A stretch of 18,048 bases of DNA from Clostridia bacterium (GTDB lineage Bacteria; Bacillota_A; Clostridia; Christensenellales; Aristaeellaceae), in contig JAFUPT010000092.1 in NCBI GenBank assembly GCA_017481065.1, forward strand, positions 1-18,048. The letters are read 5' to 3'. The notes under the pieces were generated by a model. That model was not told the DNA's origin. It saw nothing but the letters and a program-made list of their open reading frames with translations, and made no database searches. The position numbers and the translations under genes are program-made. Of this stretch, positions 2,938 through 18,005 are shown piece by piece. Numbering within the stretch: position 1 is the first letter of the stretch; each line of letters begins with the position of its first letter.

Positions 2938-2988
2938 CCAGAGGACGCTGTCCTCTGGACTCCTGGCAGGGGAAATGATTTCCCCTGC
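2938..2988. repeat. Two palindromic G/C-tract units before the liv terminator
   Basis: The first unit (2938-2958) has arms CCAGAGGAC and GTCCTCTGG around a three-base centre. The second (2966-2988) has arms GCAGGGGAAAT and ATTTCCCCTGC around a single central base. Linkers ACTCCTG and CACCCCTCAGCAA flank them. They belong to the composite intergenic family described in the findings. Confidence 0.8.
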
Positions 2989-2997
2989 ACCCCTCAG

Positions 2998-3030
2998 CAA
3001 AAAAACGAGCCCGTTTCGGGCTCGTTTTTC
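2998..3030 (+). terminator. Rho-independent terminator of the liv operon
   Basis: The stem AAAAACGAGCCCG (3001-3013) pairs perfectly with CGGGCTCGTTTTT (3017-3029) around a TTT loop. The right arm ends in a T run on the plus strand. The A run on the left would make it work on the other strand too. Confidence 0.9.
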
Positions 3031-3052
3031 AATAAATATTAGAATAGAACAA

Positions 3053-3182
3053 TGCAAGCCTGCTCCATTCTTGCCGGGGCAGGCTTGCAATATTTATTCT
3101 TGCGACGCAAAGCGTCGCTTACTGAGGGTTCCAAGGGGGATCATCCCCCTTGGCAGGGGTTCTAGGGGACGGAGTCCCCTAG
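3053..3182. repeat. Second half of composite element: hairpins and palindromes before the nucleoside transporter promoter
   Basis: A hairpin has 11-base arms TGCAAGCCTGC (3053-3063) and GCAGGCTTGCA (3079-3089). After AT-rich sequence comes a short hairpin GCGACGC-AAA-GCGTCGC (3102-3118). Then come two palindromes: 3131-3153 (arms CCAAGGGGGAT and ATCCCCCTTGG) and 3162-3182 (arms CTAGGGGAC and GTCCCCTAG). Read on the minus strand, the order and linkers match the elements at 9770-9853 and 17809-17883. Together with 2801-2988 this fills the 497-base gap; no gene was seen in it. Confidence 0.8.
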
Positions 3183-7086: not shown

Positions 7087-7122
7087 CAAAAATGCCTGTC
7101 CCACCATGGGACAGGCATTTTT
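7087..7122. terminator. Bidirectional terminator between nupQ and rsmG
   Basis: ATGCCTGTCCC (7092-7102) pairs with GGGACAGGCAT (7108-7118) around ACCAT. A run of A precedes and a run of T follows, so it can stop transcription from both converging genes. Confidence 0.9.
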
Positions 7123-7134
7123 ATGCGGAGGGGT

Positions 7135-7186
7135 GCAGGGGAAATCATTTCCCCTGCCAGGGGTTTTAGGGGACGGAGTCCCCTAA
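7135..7186. repeat. Two palindromic G/C-tract units downstream of rsmG
   Basis: The unit at 7135-7157 has arms GCAGGGGAAAT and ATTTCCCCTGC; the unit at 7166-7186 has arms TTAGGGGAC and GTCCCCTAA. They are preceded by the recurring linker ATGCGGAGGGGTGCAGGG and joined by CAGGGGTTT. Confidence 0.8.
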
Positions 7187-8167: not shown

Positions 8168-9736
8168 TTATTTCACTTCAATTTCGGCCTGTTCCTTGAT
8201 TTCCCGGGGGAAATCGGGGAGCTCCGGCTTCTTTTCGCGCAGGGAATCGAAGCTCTCCTCCGTGCGGCGCAGCTTTTCGATCAGATGGAGCTTGCCGAGC
8301 TCGCGGATGGCGGCGTCGGTATCGCTTCTTCGCTGCTCCATGCGGCGCAGGCGCTCCTCAGATGCGAGGCCCGCCTCGTAGCCCATGCGGGTGAGGCGCA
8401 TATCGGCATTATCCTGCCGCAGCAGCAGGCGATATTCGGCGCGGCTGGTCATCATGCGGTAGGGCTCGTCGGTTCCTTTGGTCACGAGATCATCCACCAT
8501 CACGCCGATGTAGGCGTCCGCGCGGGTGAGGATCATGGGATCGCGGCCCTTGAGCCACAGGCTTGCGTTGATGCCGGCGTAGAGGCCCTGGGCGGCTGCC
8601 TCCTCGTAGCCGCTGGTTCCGTTGATCTGGCCCGCGAAATACAGGCCCTCGATTCCCTTTGCCCGGAAGCTGTTGTCCAGCTGGGTGGGATCGATGCAAT
8701 CGTATTCGATGGCGTAGGCCAATCTCAGGATTTTCGCATGCTCAAGGCCGGGCACGGTGGCGTAAATCATGCGCTGCACATCCTCTGGCATGGATGTGGA
8801 CATGCCCTGCACATACCATTCGTTGGTATCCAGCCCCTCCGGCTCCATAAAGATGGGGTGGCGCTCCTTATCCTTGAAGCGGACAACCTTATCCTCGATG
8901 CTGGGGCAGTAGCGCGCGCCGGTGCCGTGGATGGTGCCGGAATACATGGGCGCGCGGTGCAGGTTATCCAGAATCACCTTGTGGGTTTCTGGGGTGGTGT
9001 AGGTAAGGTAGCAGCGGGCTTTGTTGGTGAGGGGCGCGGGATCGGTCATGAAGGAGAAGGGCACGATGGGATCATCGCCATCCTGCGGCTCCATCCTGGA
9101 AAAATCGATGGTGCGGCCATCAATGCGCGCCGGGGTGCCGGTTTTGAAGCGGCGGATTTCAAAGCCCAGATCCATCAGGTTCTGGGTGAGGGCGTTGGCC
9201 GCCAGCAGGCCCTGGGGACCGCCGTTCCAGCTGCATTCGCCGATGATGATGCGGCTCTTCAAATATACGCCCGTGCACACGATGGCGGCCTTGCAGGCGA
9301 CGCTCGATCCGGTGGTGGTTTCCACGCCGGTCACCCTGCCGTTTTCCACGAAGATGCGGCTCACCTCCGCCTGGCGCAGGTCGAGGCGTTCGCAATTATC
9401 GATGGCCTGGCGCATGCGCTTCTGGTAGGCCTTTTTATCGGCCTGCGCCCGCAGCGAATGCACTGCCGGGCCCTTGCCGGTATTCAGCATCCGGCTCTGG
9501 ATGAATACATCATCGATTGCCCGGCCCATCTCGCCGCCAAGGGCGTCCAGCTCGCGCACCAAATGGCCCTTCGCCGTGCCGCCAATCGAAGGATTGCAGG
9601 GCATCATGGCGAGGGAATCCAAATTCAGGGTGGTCAGCAGCGTGCTGAAACCCATGCGCGCGCAGGCGAGGGCGGCTTCGCAGCCCGCGTGGCCCGCGCC
9701 GATGACGATGATATCGTAAGAATCCGTGAAATGCAT
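8168..9736 (-). CDS. mnmG: tRNA uridine-5-carboxymethylaminomethyl modification enzyme MnmG (GidA), truncated by an in-frame stop
   Basis: MnmG with MnmE builds the cmnm5 group on U34 of certain tRNAs, using FAD. The 522 residues before the stop contain the FAD-binding [11 protein letters not shown] at 12-22, [19 protein letters not shown] at 45-62 with the conserved Cys47, [13 protein letters not shown] with Cys277, and [20 protein letters not shown] at 369-388. ATG 9736 is preceded by AAAGGAAGT. The frame stops at TAA (8170-8168) right after EIEVK, while the C-terminal domain continues in frame for 82 more codons (7919-8167). Restored length would be 605 residues, near the family norm. Without that domain MnmG is expected to be inactive. 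The usual neighbour mnmE is not upstream; a divergent peptide operon is there instead. Confidence 0.93.
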
Positions 9737-9769
9737 GGTGGGTACTTCCTTTATTTGAGTAGAGGCGGG

Positions 9770-9853
9770 CTTAAGGGACTCCGTCCCTTAAGAATCCCTG
9801 CCAAGGGGGATGATCCCCCTTGGAACCCTCAGCAAGGCACGCATACGCGTGCC
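9770..9853. repeat. Composite palindromic element in the mnmG leader, first half
   Basis: Units are 9770-9792 (arms CTTAAGGGAC and GTCCCTTAAG) and 9801-9823 (arms CCAAGGGGGAT and ATCCCCCTTGG). Then come the linker AACCCTCAGCAA and the short hairpin GGCACGCATACGCGTGCC (9836-9853). The identical 18-base hairpin recurs at 14617-14634. Confidence 0.8.
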
Positions 9854-9865
9854 GGAATTATTTTT

Positions 9866-9896
9866 GAAAATCGCGCCGCCGAATGGCGCGATTTTC
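9866..9896. terminator. Terminator-like hairpin between the divergent mnmG and peptide operons
   Basis: GAAAATCGCGCC (9866-9877) pairs perfectly with GGCGCGATTTTC (9885-9896) around a seven-base loop. The A and T runs lie inside the stem, so termination is possible on either strand. Yet the flanking genes diverge, so no upstream gene needs stopping here. On the minus strand it would sit in the mnmG leader, where it could act as an attenuator. Its role is uncertain. Confidence 0.5.
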
Positions 9897-9909
9897 AATG
9901 CTGGGGGTT

Positions 9910-9960
9910 CTTAGGGAAATGATTCCCCTAAGCCGGGGGTTTGGGGGCGGGAAGCCCCCG
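9910..9960. repeat. Composite palindromic element in the mnmG leader, second half
   Basis: A slightly decayed unit lies at 9910-9932 (CTTAGGGAAAT and ATTCCCCTAAG). After the linker CCGGGGGTTT comes a looser G-tract/C-tract pair at 9943-9959. The 391-base gap 9737-10127 holds these repeats plus promoters and no gene. Confidence 0.7.
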
Positions 9961-9976
9961 AAAGCGTTCTCCCTCT

Positions 9977-9982
9977 ATTATA
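9977..9982 (-). promoter_or_regulatory. Possible -10 box for mnmG-rsmG
   Basis: The minus strand reads TATAAT here, in a short AT-rich patch. A TTGATG lies upstream, but the 21-base spacing is too long to be a normal -35. If used, the mnmG leader would be about 235 bases and would contain the whole palindrome/hairpin block. It is the only good -10 seen between mnmG and the peptide operon. Confidence 0.35.
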
Positions 9983-10065
9983 CAACACTCCCCGCCGCCC
10001 CGCCATCAAGATATGATGATTTTTTGGCCTGACAGAAAAAAATCAAAAAATTTCTGAGAAAAAAG

Positions 10066-10095
10066 TGGCCATAGGGGTTATTTATATCGTATAAT
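10066..10095 (+). promoter_or_regulatory. Promoter for the double-glycine peptide operon
   Basis: A consensus TATAAT lies at 10090-10095, with a partial -35 TGGCCA (10066-10071) 18 bases upstream. The surrounding sequence is the most AT-rich in the window. Transcription would start near 10102, about 26 bases before the first peptide start, which has AGGAGG at 10115-10120. Confidence 0.6.
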
Positions 10096-10127
10096 AAGAC
10101 AAAGAGAAAATACAGGAGGAAAACCTC

Positions 10128-10358
10128 ATGAACGAAGATATCAAGAAGAACGCATTCATCCCCTGCGGCGATTCCATGGAAAAGATGGGCGGAGAAATTC
10201 TGGATGACGAGCTGGACATGGTATCCGGCGGCGTGAACGTGAATGAAAACGCAATGAGCAAGTTCAAGAGATGCCCGAAGTGCATGCGCTCGGTTCCGGT
10301 GCTGGCGGTTAACGGCGAAGAGATTTATTATTGCAAGATGTGCGGGGAGTATATTTAA
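10128..10358 (+). CDS. Double-glycine leader peptide with CxxC-x16-CxxC core (peptide 1)
   Basis: This 76-residue peptide is not a family I can name. The N-terminal part is acidic and ends in DDELDMVSGG (residues 26-35). That matches the double-glycine leaders cleaved by peptidase-containing ABC transporters during export of bacteriocins and modified peptides. A second GG lies at 21-22. The predicted core of 41 residues has KRCPKCM and YYCKMCGEYI: cysteines 49, 52, 69 and 72, a zinc-ribbon-like pattern; Cys13 lies in the leader. AGGAGG sits eight bases before ATG 10128. It shares MNE-IKKN and the VSGG leader end with peptide 3. No transporter, protease or modifying enzyme is in the window. 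It could be a RiPP precursor, an exported metal-binding peptide, or a small intracellular zinc ribbon with a chance GG. Confidence 0.75.
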   Translation: MNEDIKKNAFIPCGDSMEKMGGEILDDELDMVSGGVNVNENAMSKFKRCPKCMRSVPVLAVNGEEIYYCKMCGEYI

Positions 10359-10389
10359 TCCGGCGCAGGCTTTCAGAGTAGGGCCAACC

Positions 10390-10524
10390 ATGAGCGAAGA
10401 AAAGAAGAATGAAATCCGTGATGAACGGCTGGAAGATGTGTCCGGCGGCAGTTTGCCGTCCCATGCCGCCAATGATTCGGATTACATCGAAGATGAAGCT
10501 ATGCTGATTATTCCGATTGTTTAA
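10390..10524 (+). CDS. Double-glycine leader peptide without cysteine (peptide 2)
   Basis: This frame encodes 44 residues: MSEEKKNEIRDERLEDVSGG, then a 24-residue core that is acidic (NDSDYIEDEA) and ends in the hydrophobic MLIIPIV. The leader clearly resembles those of its two neighbours (KKNEI...LE-VSGG), but the core has no cysteine and no resemblance to theirs. The ribosome site is weak (GAGTAGGG, about seven bases before the ATG). It starts 31 bases after peptide 1 and ends 12 bases before peptide 3, on the same strand. It may be a second peptide type matured by the same machinery, or a decayed copy. The shared leader is the main evidence that it is a gene. Confidence 0.6.
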   Translation: MSEEKKNEIRDERLEDVSGGSLPSHAANDSDYIEDEAMLIIPIV

Positions 10525-10536
10525 GGAGGTAAACCC

Positions 10537-10725
10537 ATGAACGAAGAAATCAAAAAGAATGAAATTGCCGAAGAAGAGCTGGAAGAGGTATCCGGCGGCG
10601 TCGGCCGCCTTGCGGCCCCGAGAACCTGCTCCAAGTGCGGCGGAGTTGTGTTTGCGGGGGCCGAGCCGATCTACAGCGCACACAGATATTTCTGCCCCAG
10701 GTGCAATCGTGAGGAACGCGCGTAA
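10537..10725 (+). CDS. Double-glycine leader peptide with CxxC-x18-CxxC core (peptide 3)
   Basis: This frame encodes 62 residues with the leader ending EEELEEVSGG (12-21), then a 41-residue core with RTCSKCGG and YFCPRCNREERA. Cysteines 31, 34, 53 and 56 give CxxC-x18-CxxC, close to the x16 spacing of peptide 1. The predicted core length is the same as in peptide 1. AAGGAGG lies just before ATG 10537, directly after the peptide 2 stop. This core is basic and glycine-rich, unlike peptide 2. It is the last gene before the strong terminator at 10792-10835. The product family is not recognised; export and cleavage after GG are inferred from the leader alone. Confidence 0.75.
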   Translation: MNEEIKKNEIAEEELEEVSGGVGRLAAPRTCSKCGGVVFAGAEPIYSAHRYFCPRCNREERA

Positions 10726-10791
10726 GGTAAATGGACGAAGGCGCTTGGCTGAAGGCAGCTGAAATGGATTCGCGCATGTGATGGGCGCATT

Positions 10792-10835
10792 GCAAAACCT
10801 GGAAGTTGGCGATGAACTTCCGGGTTTTGCTTTTT
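10792..10835 (+). terminator. Strong terminator of the peptide operon
   Basis: GCAAAACCTGGAAGTT (10792-10807) pairs with AACTTCCGGGTTTTGC (10815-10830), 16 pairs including one G-T wobble, around a seven-base loop. TTTTTATTT follows. It separates the peptide operon from alaS. Confidence 0.92.
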
Positions 10836-10860
10836 ATTTGCCCTTTTCACGCCGCCTACG

Positions 10861-10889
10861 TTGACTTTTCCCCCCGTCAATGCTATAAT
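10861..10889 (+). promoter_or_regulatory. Sigma-A-type promoter for alaS
   Basis: TTGACT (10861-10866) and TATAAT (10884-10889) are exactly 17 bases apart, with TGC directly before the -10 (extended -10). Transcription would begin near 10896, giving a leader of about 70 bases. That is too short for a T-box, so alaS seems not to be T-box controlled here. Confidence 0.85.
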
Positions 10890-10964
10890 TTTCGATGATT
10901 TATATGGTTCAATAGGCCCATAATTGCAAGTGAATTTATTGGCGACCATGGAGGAATTATTACA

Positions 10965-12926
10965 ATGAATGCAAACATCAAGACCTACAACGACCTGAGA
11001 GCCCTGTTTCTCAAGTTTTTTGAATCCAAGGGACATGCTGTAATTCCCAGCGCCTCCGTCATCCCGGAGAACGATCCCACCGTGCTCTTCACCACCGCCG
11101 GCATGCATCCGCTGGTTCCCTACCTGATGGGCGAAAAGCATCCCATGGGCACCCGCCTCACCGATGTGCAGAAGTGCATCCGCACCGGCGATATTGATGA
11201 TGTTGGCGATCCCAGCCACCTCACCTTCTTTGAAATGCTGGGCAACTGGTCCCTGGGCGATTATTTCAAAGAGGAAATGATTCCCTGGAGCTGGGAATTC
11301 CTCACCGGCGAAGAATGGCTGGGCCTGCCCAAGGATCGCCTCGCATTCACCGTGTTCGAGGGCGATGAGGACTGCCCCCGCGATGAAGAGGCCGCCAATA
11401 TCTGGCGCAAGCAGGGCGTGGCCGATGACCACATCTTCTACCTGCCCAAGAAGTGCAACTGGTGGGGCCCCGCCGGCGTGACCGGCCCCTGCGGCCCGGA
11501 TACCGAAATGTTCTGGATCACCGATAAGCCCGCCTGCGGCCCGGACTGCGGCCCGGATTGCAGCTGCGGACGCTACCTCGAAATCTGGAACGATGTATTC
11601 ATGCAGTATGAAAAGCAGGCCGACGGCAGCTTCATTCCGCTCAAGCAGAAGAACGTTGATACCGGCATGGGCATCGAGCGCACCTACTGCGTATTGAAGG
11701 GCGTAAAGACCGTATACGAAACCGAAATCTTTGCCTCCATCATCGGCAAGATTGAGGAGCTTTCCGGCAAGAAGTACGGCGAGAGCGACGAGGTCACCAA
11801 GGCCATCCGCATCATCTCCGACCACATGCGCACCGCTTCCTTCATCATCGGCGATGACCGCGGCGTTACCCCCTCCAACGTGGACCAGGGCTATGTGCTG
11901 CGCCGCCTGATCCGCCGCGCCGTGCGCCACGGCATGAAGCTGGGCATGCCCGAAGGCTTCACCTGCCAGATTGCACAGGTAATCATCAACCAGTACAAGG
12001 AAAATTATCCCGAGCTCGAGCGCAACGGCGCGCACATCCTTGAGCAGCTGAAGCTCGAGGAAGAACGCTTCCAGCGCACCCTCAAGAAGGGCCAGGCGGA
12101 GTTTGAAAAGGTTTACGGCAACATGGCCCGCCGCAAGGCAGCCTTCGAAGCCCTCAAGGCCGATAAGACCAATGCCGACGCCATCGCCGCCGCACTCAAG
12201 CAGCTGCCCCCGGCTCCCGAAAACCTGCCGCTGATCGAAAAGGTGAAGGCCGGCACGGTTGAGGATGCCGAGCTGGACGAGAAGATCGCCGCATGCAGCG
12301 TGATTGATGGCCGCAGCGCCTTCAAGCTCTACGATACCTTCGGCTTCCCGATTGAGATCACCAAGGAAATGGCCGAGGAAAAGGGCGTAACCGTGGATGA
12401 AGCGGGCTTCCAGGAGCGCTTCAAGAAGCACCAGGAAACCAGCCATGCCGGCGCTGAGCAGCGCTTCAAGGGCGGCCTGGCCGATTCCTCCGAGGAAACC
12501 GCCAAGCTGCACACCGCTACCCACCTGCTGCAGGCTGCCCTGCGCAAGGTTCTGGGTCCGGAGGTCAACCAGAAGGGCTCCAACATCACCGCCGAGCGCC
12601 TGCGCTTTGACTTCTCCTTCGGCCGCAAGATGACCGAGGAGGAAAAGGCCGAGGTTGAAAAGCTGGTGAATGAATATATCCAGGCCAAGGCTCCCGTCGT
12701 CTGCGAGGAGATGACCGTTGCAGAAGCCAAGGAACAGGGCGCAACCGGCCTGTTCGAATCCAAGTATGGCGAGCGTGTAAAGGTTTACACCATGGGCGAG
12801 TTCTCCAAGGAAATCTGCGGCGGCCCCCATGCCAGCAACACCGGCGACCTCGTTTCCTTCAAGATCAAGAAGGAAGAGGCTTCCTCCGCAGGCGTGCGCC
12901 GCATCAAGGCCGTTATCGGTAAGTAA
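10965..12926 (+). CDS. alaS: Alanyl-tRNA synthetase, short form without the C-Ala domain
   Basis: AlaRS joins alanine to tRNA-Ala in the cytoplasm and hydrolyses mischarged Ser- and Gly-tRNA. The catalytic class II domain spans residues 1 to about 250 (LFTTAGMHPLVPYL near 41-54, FFEMLGNWSLGDYF at 88-101, NVDTGMGIERT at 230-240). A tRNA-recognition domain follows, then the editing domain with HTATH (516-520) and CGGPH (618-622), both intact. It stops at residue 653, just after AGVRRIKAVIGK. Family members are usually about 870 residues and continue into a C-terminal domain used for dimerisation and tRNA contact. No remnant follows the TAA; a repeat begins 16 bases later. Two other oddities are a cysteine cluster at C191/C195/C199/C201 and an Ala/Lys-rich insertion at about 385-445. 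GGAGGAATT precedes ATG 10965. Confidence 0.95.
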   Translation: MNANIKTYNDLRALFLKFFESKGHAVIPSASVIPENDPTVLFTTAGMHPLVPYLMGEKHPMGTRLTDVQKCIRTGDIDDVGDPSHLTFFEMLGNWSLGDYFKEEMIPWSWEFLTGEEWLGLPKDRLAFTVFEGDEDCPRDEEAANIWRKQGVADDHIFYLPKKCNWWGPAGVTGPCGPDTEMFWITDKPACGPDCGPDCSCGRYLEIWNDVFMQYEKQADGSFIPLKQKNVDTGMGIERTYCVLKGVKTVYETEIFASIIGKIEELSGKKYGESDEVTKAIRIISDHMRTASFIIGDDRGVTPSNVDQGYVLRRLIRRAVRHGMKLGMPEGFTCQIAQVIINQYKENYPELERNGAHILEQLKLEEERFQRTLKKGQAEFEKVYGNMARRKAAFEALKADKTNADAIAAALKQLPPAPENLPLIEKVKAGTVEDAELDEKIAACSVIDGRSAFKLYDTFGFPIEITKEMAEEKGVTVDEAGFQERFKKHQETSHAGAEQRFKGGLADSSEETAKLHTATHLLQAALRKVLGPEVNQKGSNITAERLRFDFSFGRKMTEEEKAEVEKLVNEYIQAKAPVVCEEMTVAEAKEQGATGLFESKYGERVKVYTMGEFSKEICGGPHASNTGDLVSFKIKKEEASSAGVRRIKAVIGK

Positions 12927-13037: not shown

Positions 13038-13085
13038 GCAAATCGCGCCGGTCGGCAGTGCCGACATCCAGTAGGCGCGATTTGC
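13038..13085. repeat. Compound hairpin core between alaS and the glycerol-phosphate dehydrogenase gene
   Basis: GCAAATCGCGCC (13038-13049) pairs with GGCGCGATTTGC (13074-13085). The loop holds a second hairpin, GTCGGC-AGT-GCCGAC (13051-13065). The stem shares ATCGCGCC/GGCGCGAT with the hairpin at 9866-9896. It lacks a T run, so it is a poor terminator by sequence, although it sits where one would end alaS. Confidence 0.7.
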
Positions 13086-13097
13086 TTAGATGGGATT

Positions 13098-13145
13098 CTT
13101 AAGGGACAATGTCCCTTAAGCGGGGTTTCAGGGGCAGCGCCCCTG
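13098..13145. repeat. Composite palindromic element, second half, in the leader of the next gene
   Basis: Units are 13098-13120 (arms CTTAAGGGACA and TGTCCCTTAAG, one central base) and 13129-13145 (arms CAGGGGC and GCCCCTG), joined by CGGGGTTT. No convincing promoter was seen between here and ATG 13185, so the gene may depend on transcription from alaS. Confidence 0.8.
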
Positions 13146-16520: not shown

Positions 16521-17786
16521 TTAAAGTTCGCGTATTGCCAGCAAAACGCCGCTCTTTACGCCGATCTCGGCGAAATCCGCAGCAAAATCATTGCCCATGC
16601 CCAGGGGGAAGTGGGGCTCGATCGTGCCATTTTCCAATTCATATTTCGCGCCCCGGATGCTTACGCCCTCGCATTTCCCGCACAGGGCGAATACCGAGAG
16701 CTTGCCCTTCGACCTCGGCATCTTCACGCTGCCATCCTTCACGGCCGCGATATGCACCCTGCCATCGCAGAGCTCGGCATGATCGCCGCGCAGGGCGAGG
16801 CAATTCAGGGTTTGCAAATTCGCCAGCGTGTGGTCCAGCCTGCCGCCGATGCCGCCGATGATCAAAAAATCCCGGATTCCGAATTCCCAGGCATATTTCA
16901 CGCAGAGCATGGTATCGGTATCATCCTTGATCACCGGATGGCGGATGATGTTTTCGCCCTGCGGCGCATCCATGGAATCAAAATCCCCGATCACCGCGTC
17001 GGGCTTCGCGCCCGCGCGCCGGGCAGTTTCAAGCCCCGCATCGGCGCAGAGGATCATATCATTTTCCCGGGGTATGTAGGCGGCCTGGGGATCGCCCTCG
17101 CAATAAGCTGTGAAGATTACGCAGCGGCGCTGGGGCAGCAGGTCCTCGAAGGAATCGATCATGCCGTCGGCGATGGTTTCGATTTGCGCATGGGCGAAGG
17201 CGGCGTGGATGTCCTTCTTGCAGTAGGCGGCCATGCCCGCGCATTTCGCGCCCTGTATGCCTTCCAGCACATCCTCAAATACCGCGCATTTCTCCGGAGC
17301 AACGCCGAGCCGGTTCGCCGCCAGCAGGAAAACCTCGCCCCGGGCCTTGCCCCGGCCGCCGGTTTCATCCGTGGAGCACAGGGCGTCGAACCAGTGAAGG
17401 ATTCCAAGATTGGTGAGGCACGGTCTGTACAGATATTCCGGCAGCGCAGTGGCCACCGCCAGCTTCACGCCCGTCGCTTTCAGCGTTTTCAGGTAGCTCC
17501 GCGCGCCGGGGTTCAGCTGCACATGGTGGGAATATTCCTCCACCACCTGCTCCGTCCATTCGCGCACGATTTCCTCCCAGTTTTCGCTGAGCCCGAAGCG
17601 TTCGATGGTGTATTCCGCGCTCTCGCGGTAGCTCTTTCCCGAAAGCGCGCGCCCGTAATCCTCCGGGCATTCCATGCCGCGCTTCTCGAAGAATATCCTG
17701 TCCACATCCTGCCACACGCGCATGCTGTCCAGCAGGGTGCCGTCAAGATCAAAGATCGCGGCCTCGAAGGGGAATTTTATGTTCAT
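16521..17786 (-). CDS. HAD-superfamily phosphatase fused to thiamine pyrophosphokinase
   Basis: This 421-residue cytoplasmic protein has two enzyme domains. Residues 1 to about 215 are a HAD hydrolase of the phosphoglucomutase-like subfamily: FDLDGTLLDS at 12-21 with the nucleophile Asp13 and Asp15, AVATALP near 110-116, Lys147, and VFEDVLEGIQGAKCAGM at 169-185. Residues about 222-421 are thiamine pyrophosphokinase, which makes thiamine diphosphate from thiamine and ATP: CADAGLETARRAGAKPDAVI (247-266), GDFDS (267-271), KDDTDTML (287-294) and GGIGGRLDHTLANLQTL (311-327). I chose ATG 17786, preceded by AAGGAGT, because the open frame upstream runs only through a repeat. It leads the operon. The HAD substrate cannot be read from sequence; a thiamine phosphate would suit the partner domain. 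Confidence 0.9.
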   Translation of the reverse strand: MNIKFPFEAAIFDLDGTLLDSMRVWQDVDRIFFEKRGMECPEDYGRALSGKSYRESAEYTIERFGLSENWEEIVREWTEQVVEEYSHHVQLNPGARSYLKTLKATGVKLAVATALPEYLYRPCLTNLGILHWFDALCSTDETGGRGKARGEVFLLAANRLGVAPEKCAVFEDVLEGIQGAKCAGMAAYCKKDIHAAFAHAQIETIADGMIDSFEDLLPQRRCVIFTAYCEGDPQAAYIPRENDMILCADAGLETARRAGAKPDAVIGDFDSMDAPQGENIIRHPVIKDDTDTMLCVKYAWEFGIRDFLIIGGIGGRLDHTLANLQTLNCLALRGDHAELCDGRVHIAAVKDGSVKMPRSKGKLSVFALCGKCEGVSIRGAKYELENGTIEPHFPLGMGNDFAADFAEIGVKSGVLLAIREL

Positions 17787-17808
17787 GAAGTACTCCTTGG
17801 GGGTTATG

Positions 17809-18005
17809 CTGGGGCGCTGCCCCAGACCCCGCCAAAGGGGATGATCCCCTTTGGAAACCTCAGTAAGCGCTGCTTCGCAGCGCAGAAATAATAATATCAC
17901 GACGCGCAGCGTCGTTTCAGAGGGGTCCAGGGTAAATCATTTCCCCTGGCAGGGTTCTTAGGGGCAGCGCCCCTAAGCAGGGTTCTTAGGGACGGAGTCC
18001 TTAAG
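17809..18005. repeat. Composite palindromic element upstream of the HAD-thiamine kinase operon
   Basis: Seven parts can be read in order: a unit at 17809-17825 (CTGGGGC and GCCCCAG), a unit at 17832-17854 (CCAAAGGGGAT and ATCCCCTTTGG), the linker AAACCTCAGTAA, a hairpin GCGCTGC-TTC-GCAGCGC (17867-17883), AT-rich AATAATAATAT, a hairpin ACGACGC-GCA-GCGTCGT (17899-17915), then units near 17927-17949, 17958-17976 (TTAGGGGC and GCCCCTAA) and a decayed 17985-18005. No gene and no clear promoter were found from 17787 to the window end. Confidence 0.8.

Follow-up and report, generated by a model that had tools for sequence, protein, structure and literature searches.

Three small genes with a common double-glycine leader

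The window analysed here is the whole 18,048-nucleotide contig JAFUPT010000092.1 of a Clostridia bacterium, and our subject is an operon within it: three small open reading frames (ORFs) that lie head to tail on the forward strand, flanked by mnmG (reverse strand) and alaS (forward strand). Peptide 1 (10128-10358) has 76 residues, of which the first 35 form a leader ending in two glycines (a GG leader; 10128-10232) and the remaining 41 a core (10233-10355) carrying CPKC-x16-CKMC. Peptide 2 (10390-10524; 44 residues) joins a 20-residue GG leader to a 24-residue core that is acidic and free of cysteine, while peptide 3 (10537-10725; 62 residues) has a GG leader of 21 residues and, again, a core of 41 (10600-10722), this time with CSKC-x18-CPRC. 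A preliminary description of this DNA, made by eye from the letters and their ORFs, had proposed three adjacent genes with one type of leader and these three types of core, and both the ORFs and the chance test given below confirm it.

All three leaders end in VSGG and share isoleucine at position -12, leucine at -7 and valine at -4; glutamate at -8 is present in two of them (peptide 1 among these), peptide 2 having arginine there. They also repeat at the DNA level, as three 41-nt copies of which the later two are 68% and 80% identical to the first. The leader consensus given for substrates of peptidase-containing ABC transporters (PCATs) is L(-12)xxxE(-8)L(-7)xxxxGG (PMC6959990), and the leaders agree with this double-glycine (PCAT/C39) consensus, with isoleucine instead of leucine at -12. 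Using a leader pattern modelled on these same peptides, we found three matching ORFs in the window, against a mean of 0.02 and a maximum of one in 100 dinucleotide shuffles, and none in 1,108,267 bp covering 80 other alaS loci.

Curated models do not place the peptides in a named class. Peptide 3 falls below the cut-offs of the bacteriocin models PF10439 (18.1 vs 27.1), TIGR03949 (20.1 vs 21.5) and TIGR01847 (12.7 vs 15.7), peptide 1 has leader-type matches that are weaker (for the plantaricin C family, 15 against a cut-off of 29), and peptide 2 matches none of the bacteriocin-type leader models; by this measure none of the three is recognised as a class II bacteriocin. The NCBIfam models for the long leaders of NHLP and Nif11 precursors are absent among the matches of the three peptides up to an E value of 1.

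The cores of peptides 1 and 3 have the paired cysteine knuckles of a zinc ribbon. For the core of peptide 1, the Pfam zinc-ribbon matches are below the gathering threshold and the top Foldseek match is a small zinc-finger protein (E 0.52). AlphaFold2 predicts four short beta strands in peptide 1, with blocks of predicted local distance difference test (pLDDT) score of 70-82 over residues 41-76; its model of peptide 3 is of low confidence (mean pLDDT 59.6).

Clear ribosome-binding sites precede peptide 1 (AGGAGG, 10114-10119) and peptide 3 (AAGGAGG, 10523-10529, overlapping the stop codon of peptide 2). The operon had been credited with its own promoter and a strong terminator. The terminator stands, as a forward-strand intrinsic terminator with a 16-bp stem followed by T5 (-25.7 kcal/mol, z -6.2), at 10792-10830 and so beyond the end first given for the operon. 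The promoter is weaker: a possible sigma-70-type site, TGGCCA-18-TATAAT (10066-10095, forward strand), matches the consensus at 10 of 12 positions, and we regard it as a weak candidate because four such sites occur in 9900-11000 where 1.7 are expected. The GC content of the operon is 52%, compared with 59% for the window.

A modular peptide family in related genomes

When proteins were searched with one peptide at a time, each retrieved no more than itself or a copy nearly identical to it, so a family profile was needed. Relatives were reached through alanyl-tRNA synthetase (AlaRS), a search with which led to metagenome-assembled genomes (MAGs), many of them from ruminant and rabbit guts; the top identity was to L018 of genome G007 (88% over residues 150-653). 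Of the 100 relatives of G007 searched with peptide 3, 20 gave a match at E ≤ 0.1. Five of these were inspected at first (G012, G055, G060, G088 and G042), the last two proving to hold no such peptide despite the match, and G012 yielding a run of homologues. Our profile, A2, was built from 19 sequences of G012, G055 and the window. Throughout, at most 24 top candidates per genome were scored with this profile, at most four with the exporter model TIGR03796 and at most 15 in a class-wide draw, and the counts are therefore lower bounds.

On the 6468-bp contig C171 of G012, at least 21 profile matches lie on the same strand, 21 being a minimum from 24 scored of 78 candidates. Every one of the 21 has a GG leader; 17 have at least two CxxC motifs, two have CxNGH replacing one CxxC, and two have neither. 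Against 576 candidate proteins, A2 gave 93 matches at E ≤ 10 and 74 at E ≤ 1e-3, 13 of the latter being seeds, near-copies or products of the seed contigs. Two of the 74 contain a Pfam domain (Zn_ribbon_8 and Rubredoxin), and two bear a name in their source, 'hypothetical protein'. Protein P0015 passes the Pfam Rubredoxin threshold (25.7 bits, cut-off 23), and P0090 joins a leader almost identical to that of peptide 3 to a different, cysteine-free core. The class-wide draw of 391 genomes gave at least three matches at E ≤ 1e-5. One of them, L297, combines a GG leader with several CxxC motifs; in the other two a stop codon interrupts the matched part.

Where a profile match began only past the leader, at about model position 28 or later, it was taken for a generic zinc ribbon and excluded without individual inspection. 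The best of these matches has an E value of about 1e-5, and most lie in frames of about 90-610 residues, which is what one would expect if they were ordinary intracellular zinc ribbons. The preliminary description had named ribbon homologues lacking the leader as one of two results that would speak against it; the G012 homologues keep their GG without exception, and the core-only matches are weak.

Leaders of the same type are joined to a range of cores: tetracysteine ribbons, C-x5-H...CPVCG, desulforedoxin-like CxxC...CC, and SH3 domains, one of which (L160:8980) Pfam confirms as SH3_3 (E 1.6e-14). In a set of 145 leader-bearing peptides, gathered with a loose pattern and containing a small number of ORFs that match by chance (L126, L223:7695 and L209:12051 among them), CxxC-xN-CxxC occurs in 61, an odd number of cysteines in 61 and no cysteine in 12. 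The family, whose paired CxxC cores after such a leader were first described as unusual, is not rare in this clade. In the genomes closest by AlaRS, SH3 is the commonest core seen, adjoining the exporter in G005 and G001, clear ribbons are scarce, and profile matches are mostly confined to the leader. GG peptides in G113 have CxC triple-repeat cores and lie beside a radical-SAM/SPASM gene.

Several other GG peptides were seen along the way. SH3-like examples recur, judged by eye, at L160, L224, L225, L226, L258, L262, L264-L267, L269, L270, L273, L274, L279 and L287. Six clustered GG peptides of G007 (L221:7775-10774) have very different cores, two of them short and hydrophobic (IDKLCEFFGGFF), and one peptide of this cluster contains another leader-like motif internally. 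An alkyl-sulfatase gene adjoins a GG peptide with a CVRC...CPCC core in two genomes (L208:9261-11107 and L210:9948-12299), and GG peptides lie near a gene for an LprI-domain protein at L208 and L209.

The two halves of the profile have separate likenesses, both weak. The leader half matches CtA, the substrate of PCAT1 (6v9z, E 0.0018), and the core half matches Rpo12 zinc ribbons (4qiw, E 6.8e-4) and desulforedoxin (1cfw, E 0.018). The preliminary description had left the cores as either metal-bound or disulfide-linked; because the family shows Cys-to-His swaps and odd cysteine counts, we favour metal over disulfides, and from these sequence features a metal-bound ribbon core seems to us quite likely.

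Cores diverge more than leaders and spacers in the G012 array

The G012 array allows leader and core to be compared within one set of genes. Among 13 paralogues with an EQELEQ leader, leaders are 84% identical in amino acid and 91% in nucleotide sequence, and cores 40% and 61%. The 50 nt upstream of the start codons of 15 paralogues are 77% identical, and thus the cores, at 61%, diverge more than the intergenic spacers. Dividing median dN by median dS in the same 15 gives about 0.33 for leaders and about 1.0 for cores; in 45% of core pairs pN is greater than pS. Such a contrast between leader and core fits diversification of a payload.

Exporter genes in related genomes

The operon had been called an orphan, with neither a peptidase-ABC transporter nor a modifying enzyme nearby. 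A Pfam scan of the 14 larger genes of the window, which recognised mnmG, rsmG, alaS, importer genes and metabolic genes, agrees with the second point: there is no match among them to a C39 peptidase or to a radical-SAM enzyme, and so no maturase beside the precursors. As the window is an 18-kb contig, this absence implies nothing about the whole genome.

Related genomes do not bear out the word orphan. TIGR03796 (NHLM C39 ABC1) scored over its cut-off in all seven AlaRS-close genomes tested, an eighth close genome, L042 (AlaRS 82% over a part), having been left out of this test. It did so in at least 61 of 250 relatives and in none of 14 control genomes; PF03412 alone matched in 34 of 100 relatives. 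The exporter was found in 9 of 12 strong carriers of the family (best E ≤ 1e-6) and in 52 of 238 others (Fisher p 2e-4), these being lower-bound counts at a threshold picked after the list was seen; at E ≤ 1e-5 it was found in 12 of 15 carriers. A peptide array of G177 begins some 2 kb downstream of ABC1-ABC2. About 7 kb separate ABC1 of G113 from a ribbon peptide, and further GG peptides occupy the interval; some 9 kb separate three peptides of G055 from an ABC1-ABC2 pair. Peptides and exporter are more than 25 kb apart on one contig of G060, and on separate contigs of the MAG in G012, G066, G076, G155 and G192. Next to the G007 exporter is a short HlyD-like protein, whose match to TIGR03794 is weak (41 bits, cut-off 156).

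Precursors may sit apart from export genes in systems of the NHLP/Nif11 type (PMC2887384), and PCAT specificity has been suggested to rest on the leader (PMC6959990). Maturation in trans, as first proposed, is supported by the C39 exporter of kin genomes, and we consider leader-directed processing and export in trans likely.

At 12 of 22 NHLM exporter loci of kin we also saw genes, or pieces of genes, for a SpoIIE/PP2C phosphatase, a STAS-like protein (by eye) and/or an ECF sigma factor (L158, L159, L162, L163, L165, L168, L170, L171, L172, L173, L177 and L213), which suggests that export is regulated.

Other features of the window

The mnmG gene on the reverse strand has an in-frame TAA stop at 8168-8170, ahead of its last part, and the piece downstream of it still matches the MnmG C-terminal domain. 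The frame is open in six of seven AlaRS-close genomes (604-701 residues, no internal stop), G005 having given no full match; the stop may be either a real mutation or an assembly error. AlaRS itself (10965-12926) has only 653 residues, its Pfam matches stopping at tRNA_SAD, and in many relatives the match covers almost the full length. An ORF of 459 residues (16521-17900, reverse strand) joins a HAD hydrolase to a thiamin pyrophosphokinase. A palindromic repeat is dispersed in both orientations through intergenic spaces, at 2943-3181, 7118-7185, 9769-9960, 13085-13144 and 17915-17977. A PADLOC scan gave nothing useful.

Discussion

Our interpretation, which we consider probable on the sequence comparisons above, is that all three genes of the operon code for cargo of a double-glycine export system: secreted metal-ribbon cargo with diversifying cores, which another part of the genome would equip the cell to cleave and export. 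An NHLM-type exporter encoded elsewhere in the chromosome, composed of a C39 peptidase-permease-ATPase (ABC1), its partner ABC2 and a short HlyD-like protein, would recognise the leaders (I-12, L-7, V-4), cleave after GG and export the cores. Outside the cell, each of the two 41-residue tetracysteine cores would fold as a zinc-ribbon or rubredoxin-like mini-domain around one metal ion (zinc or iron), and peptide 2 would deliver an acidic tail. The leader would be a general address and the core a variable payload, since in kin the cores that follow this type of leader include ribbons, CxxC...CC, C...H...CxxC and SH3. As the leaders are constrained and the cores diversify, the payload would most likely act outside the cell on varied targets. 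That it does so as an antagonistic or target-binding mini-protein we propose tentatively, placing it a little short of an even chance; a classical bacteriocin is disfavoured, because inspection of the operon by eye revealed no immunity gene.

Two sets of observations weigh against this interpretation. The first is that a C39 exporter, which the preliminary description expected in genomes carrying the family, was found in all the AlaRS-close genomes tested and in most strong carriers, but three strong carriers (G016, G061 and G137) have no match over the cut-off. The second is that relaxed constraint, an older divergence of the cores or gene conversion of the leaders could add to the contrast between leader and core, given that dS in the leaders is low as well.

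There are four other explanations to consider. The best of these, though unlikely, is that the peptides are signals, the exported cores, or the acidic cysteine-free one alone, being sensed by a receptor and the ribbons serving as stable ligands. GG peptides exported by PCATs do include signals (PMC7018657), and the phosphatase, STAS-like and sigma factor genes at kin exporter loci would suit such a role, but long arrays with strongly diverging cores are unusual for signals, and no receptor gene is among the 14 larger window genes scanned. Somewhat less probable again are extracellular metal carriers or redox mini-proteins, in which zinc or iron held by the cores would serve metal scavenging or rubredoxin-like electron transfer. 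The tetracysteine cores, the Rubredoxin match of P0015 and the desulforedoxin-like CxxC...CC members all point that way; however, SH3 and cysteine-free cores follow leaders of the same type, and a plain metal carrier would not be expected to diversify its core.

We are more doubtful still that these are precursors of modified peptides of the sactipeptide or ranthipeptide type, with cysteines cross-linked by an enzyme encoded elsewhere. GG leaders are common among ribosomally synthesised and post-translationally modified peptides, and the radical-SAM/SPASM gene of G113 stands amid GG peptides whose cores are of CxC type, yet scans of the 14 larger window genes, and of a small part of the neighbours at G012, G055, G137 and G177, gave no radical-SAM match, and the Cys-to-His swaps suit metal sites better. 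Lastly, that these are ordinary intracellular zinc-ribbon proteins with a GG motif by chance is very improbable: the core matches are indeed intracellular zinc ribbons, but three tandem leaders stand against an expected 0.02, and the leader is more conserved than the core and common to unrelated cores such as SH3.

To return to secreted, leader-directed cargo, one close likeness is to CtA, the PCAT1 substrate of Clostridium thermocellum, which has a short GG leader with hydrophobic residues at -12 and -7 followed by cargo, and whose leader our profile matches (6v9z). Unlike CtA, whose cargo of 66 residues is described as unstructured within the transporter (PMC6959990), the cores here are ribbon-like, hypervariable and arrayed. 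NHLP and Nif11 precursors share hypervariable cores after GG and the exporter families found in kin (TIGR03796/TIGR03797). The leaders of those precursors are nitrile-hydratase-like or Nif11-like, with GG motifs that end at mean positions 83 and 70 (Haft 2010, PMC2887384), whereas our leaders have 20-35 residues and do not match those models. Class II bacteriocins (PF10439, TIGR03949, TIGR01847) resemble the peptides in leader type and size and in their small mature products; they differ in the sub-threshold scores, the ribbon cores and the lack of a recognised immunity gene. The paired knuckles, CxxC...CxxC or CxxC...CC, are also those of desulforedoxin, rubredoxin and Rpo12 zinc ribbons, to which the similarity is weak; these are intracellular proteins not known to carry an export leader. 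Conserved GG leaders on diverse cores are known from the LahA/LahT lanthipeptide system of Lachnospiraceae, with nine precursors and a substrate-tolerant C39 protease (PMC6363468), but there the leaders are of Nif11 type in a lanthipeptide operon, and here no modifying enzyme was seen.

There is thus precedent for GG leaders, for NHLM exporters and for hypervariable cores. We found no description of a zinc-ribbon cargo behind a GG leader in the open-licence literature, judged by titles and abstract openings, and the main text of a rumen bacteriocin survey (PMC13289728) lacks the terms 'zinc', 'NHLP', 'NHLM', 'CXXC' and 'SH3'. Ribbon and SH3 mini-domains as arrayed and apparently unmodified cargo were likewise absent from the literature searched.

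A broader and more speculative possibility, to which we give clearly less weight, is that these peptides belong to an uncharted class of exported metal-ribbon effectors. GG leaders and NHLM exporters would then serve generally to secrete tiny folded domains (zinc ribbons, desulforedoxin-like domains and SH3), with the ribbon as a hypervariable scaffold, in arrays of at least 20, diversified for changing extracellular targets as a bacterial counterpart of knottin and conotoxin repertoires. If our interpretation is correct, double-glycine export would ship compact metal-binding and SH3 domains as well as bacteriocins, signals and modified peptides. For PCATs it would raise the question of whether a metal-ribbon cargo crosses the exporter unfolded and in its apo form, or folded, and the diversified arrays of uncultured gut Clostridia would be a testable source of stable mini-proteins.
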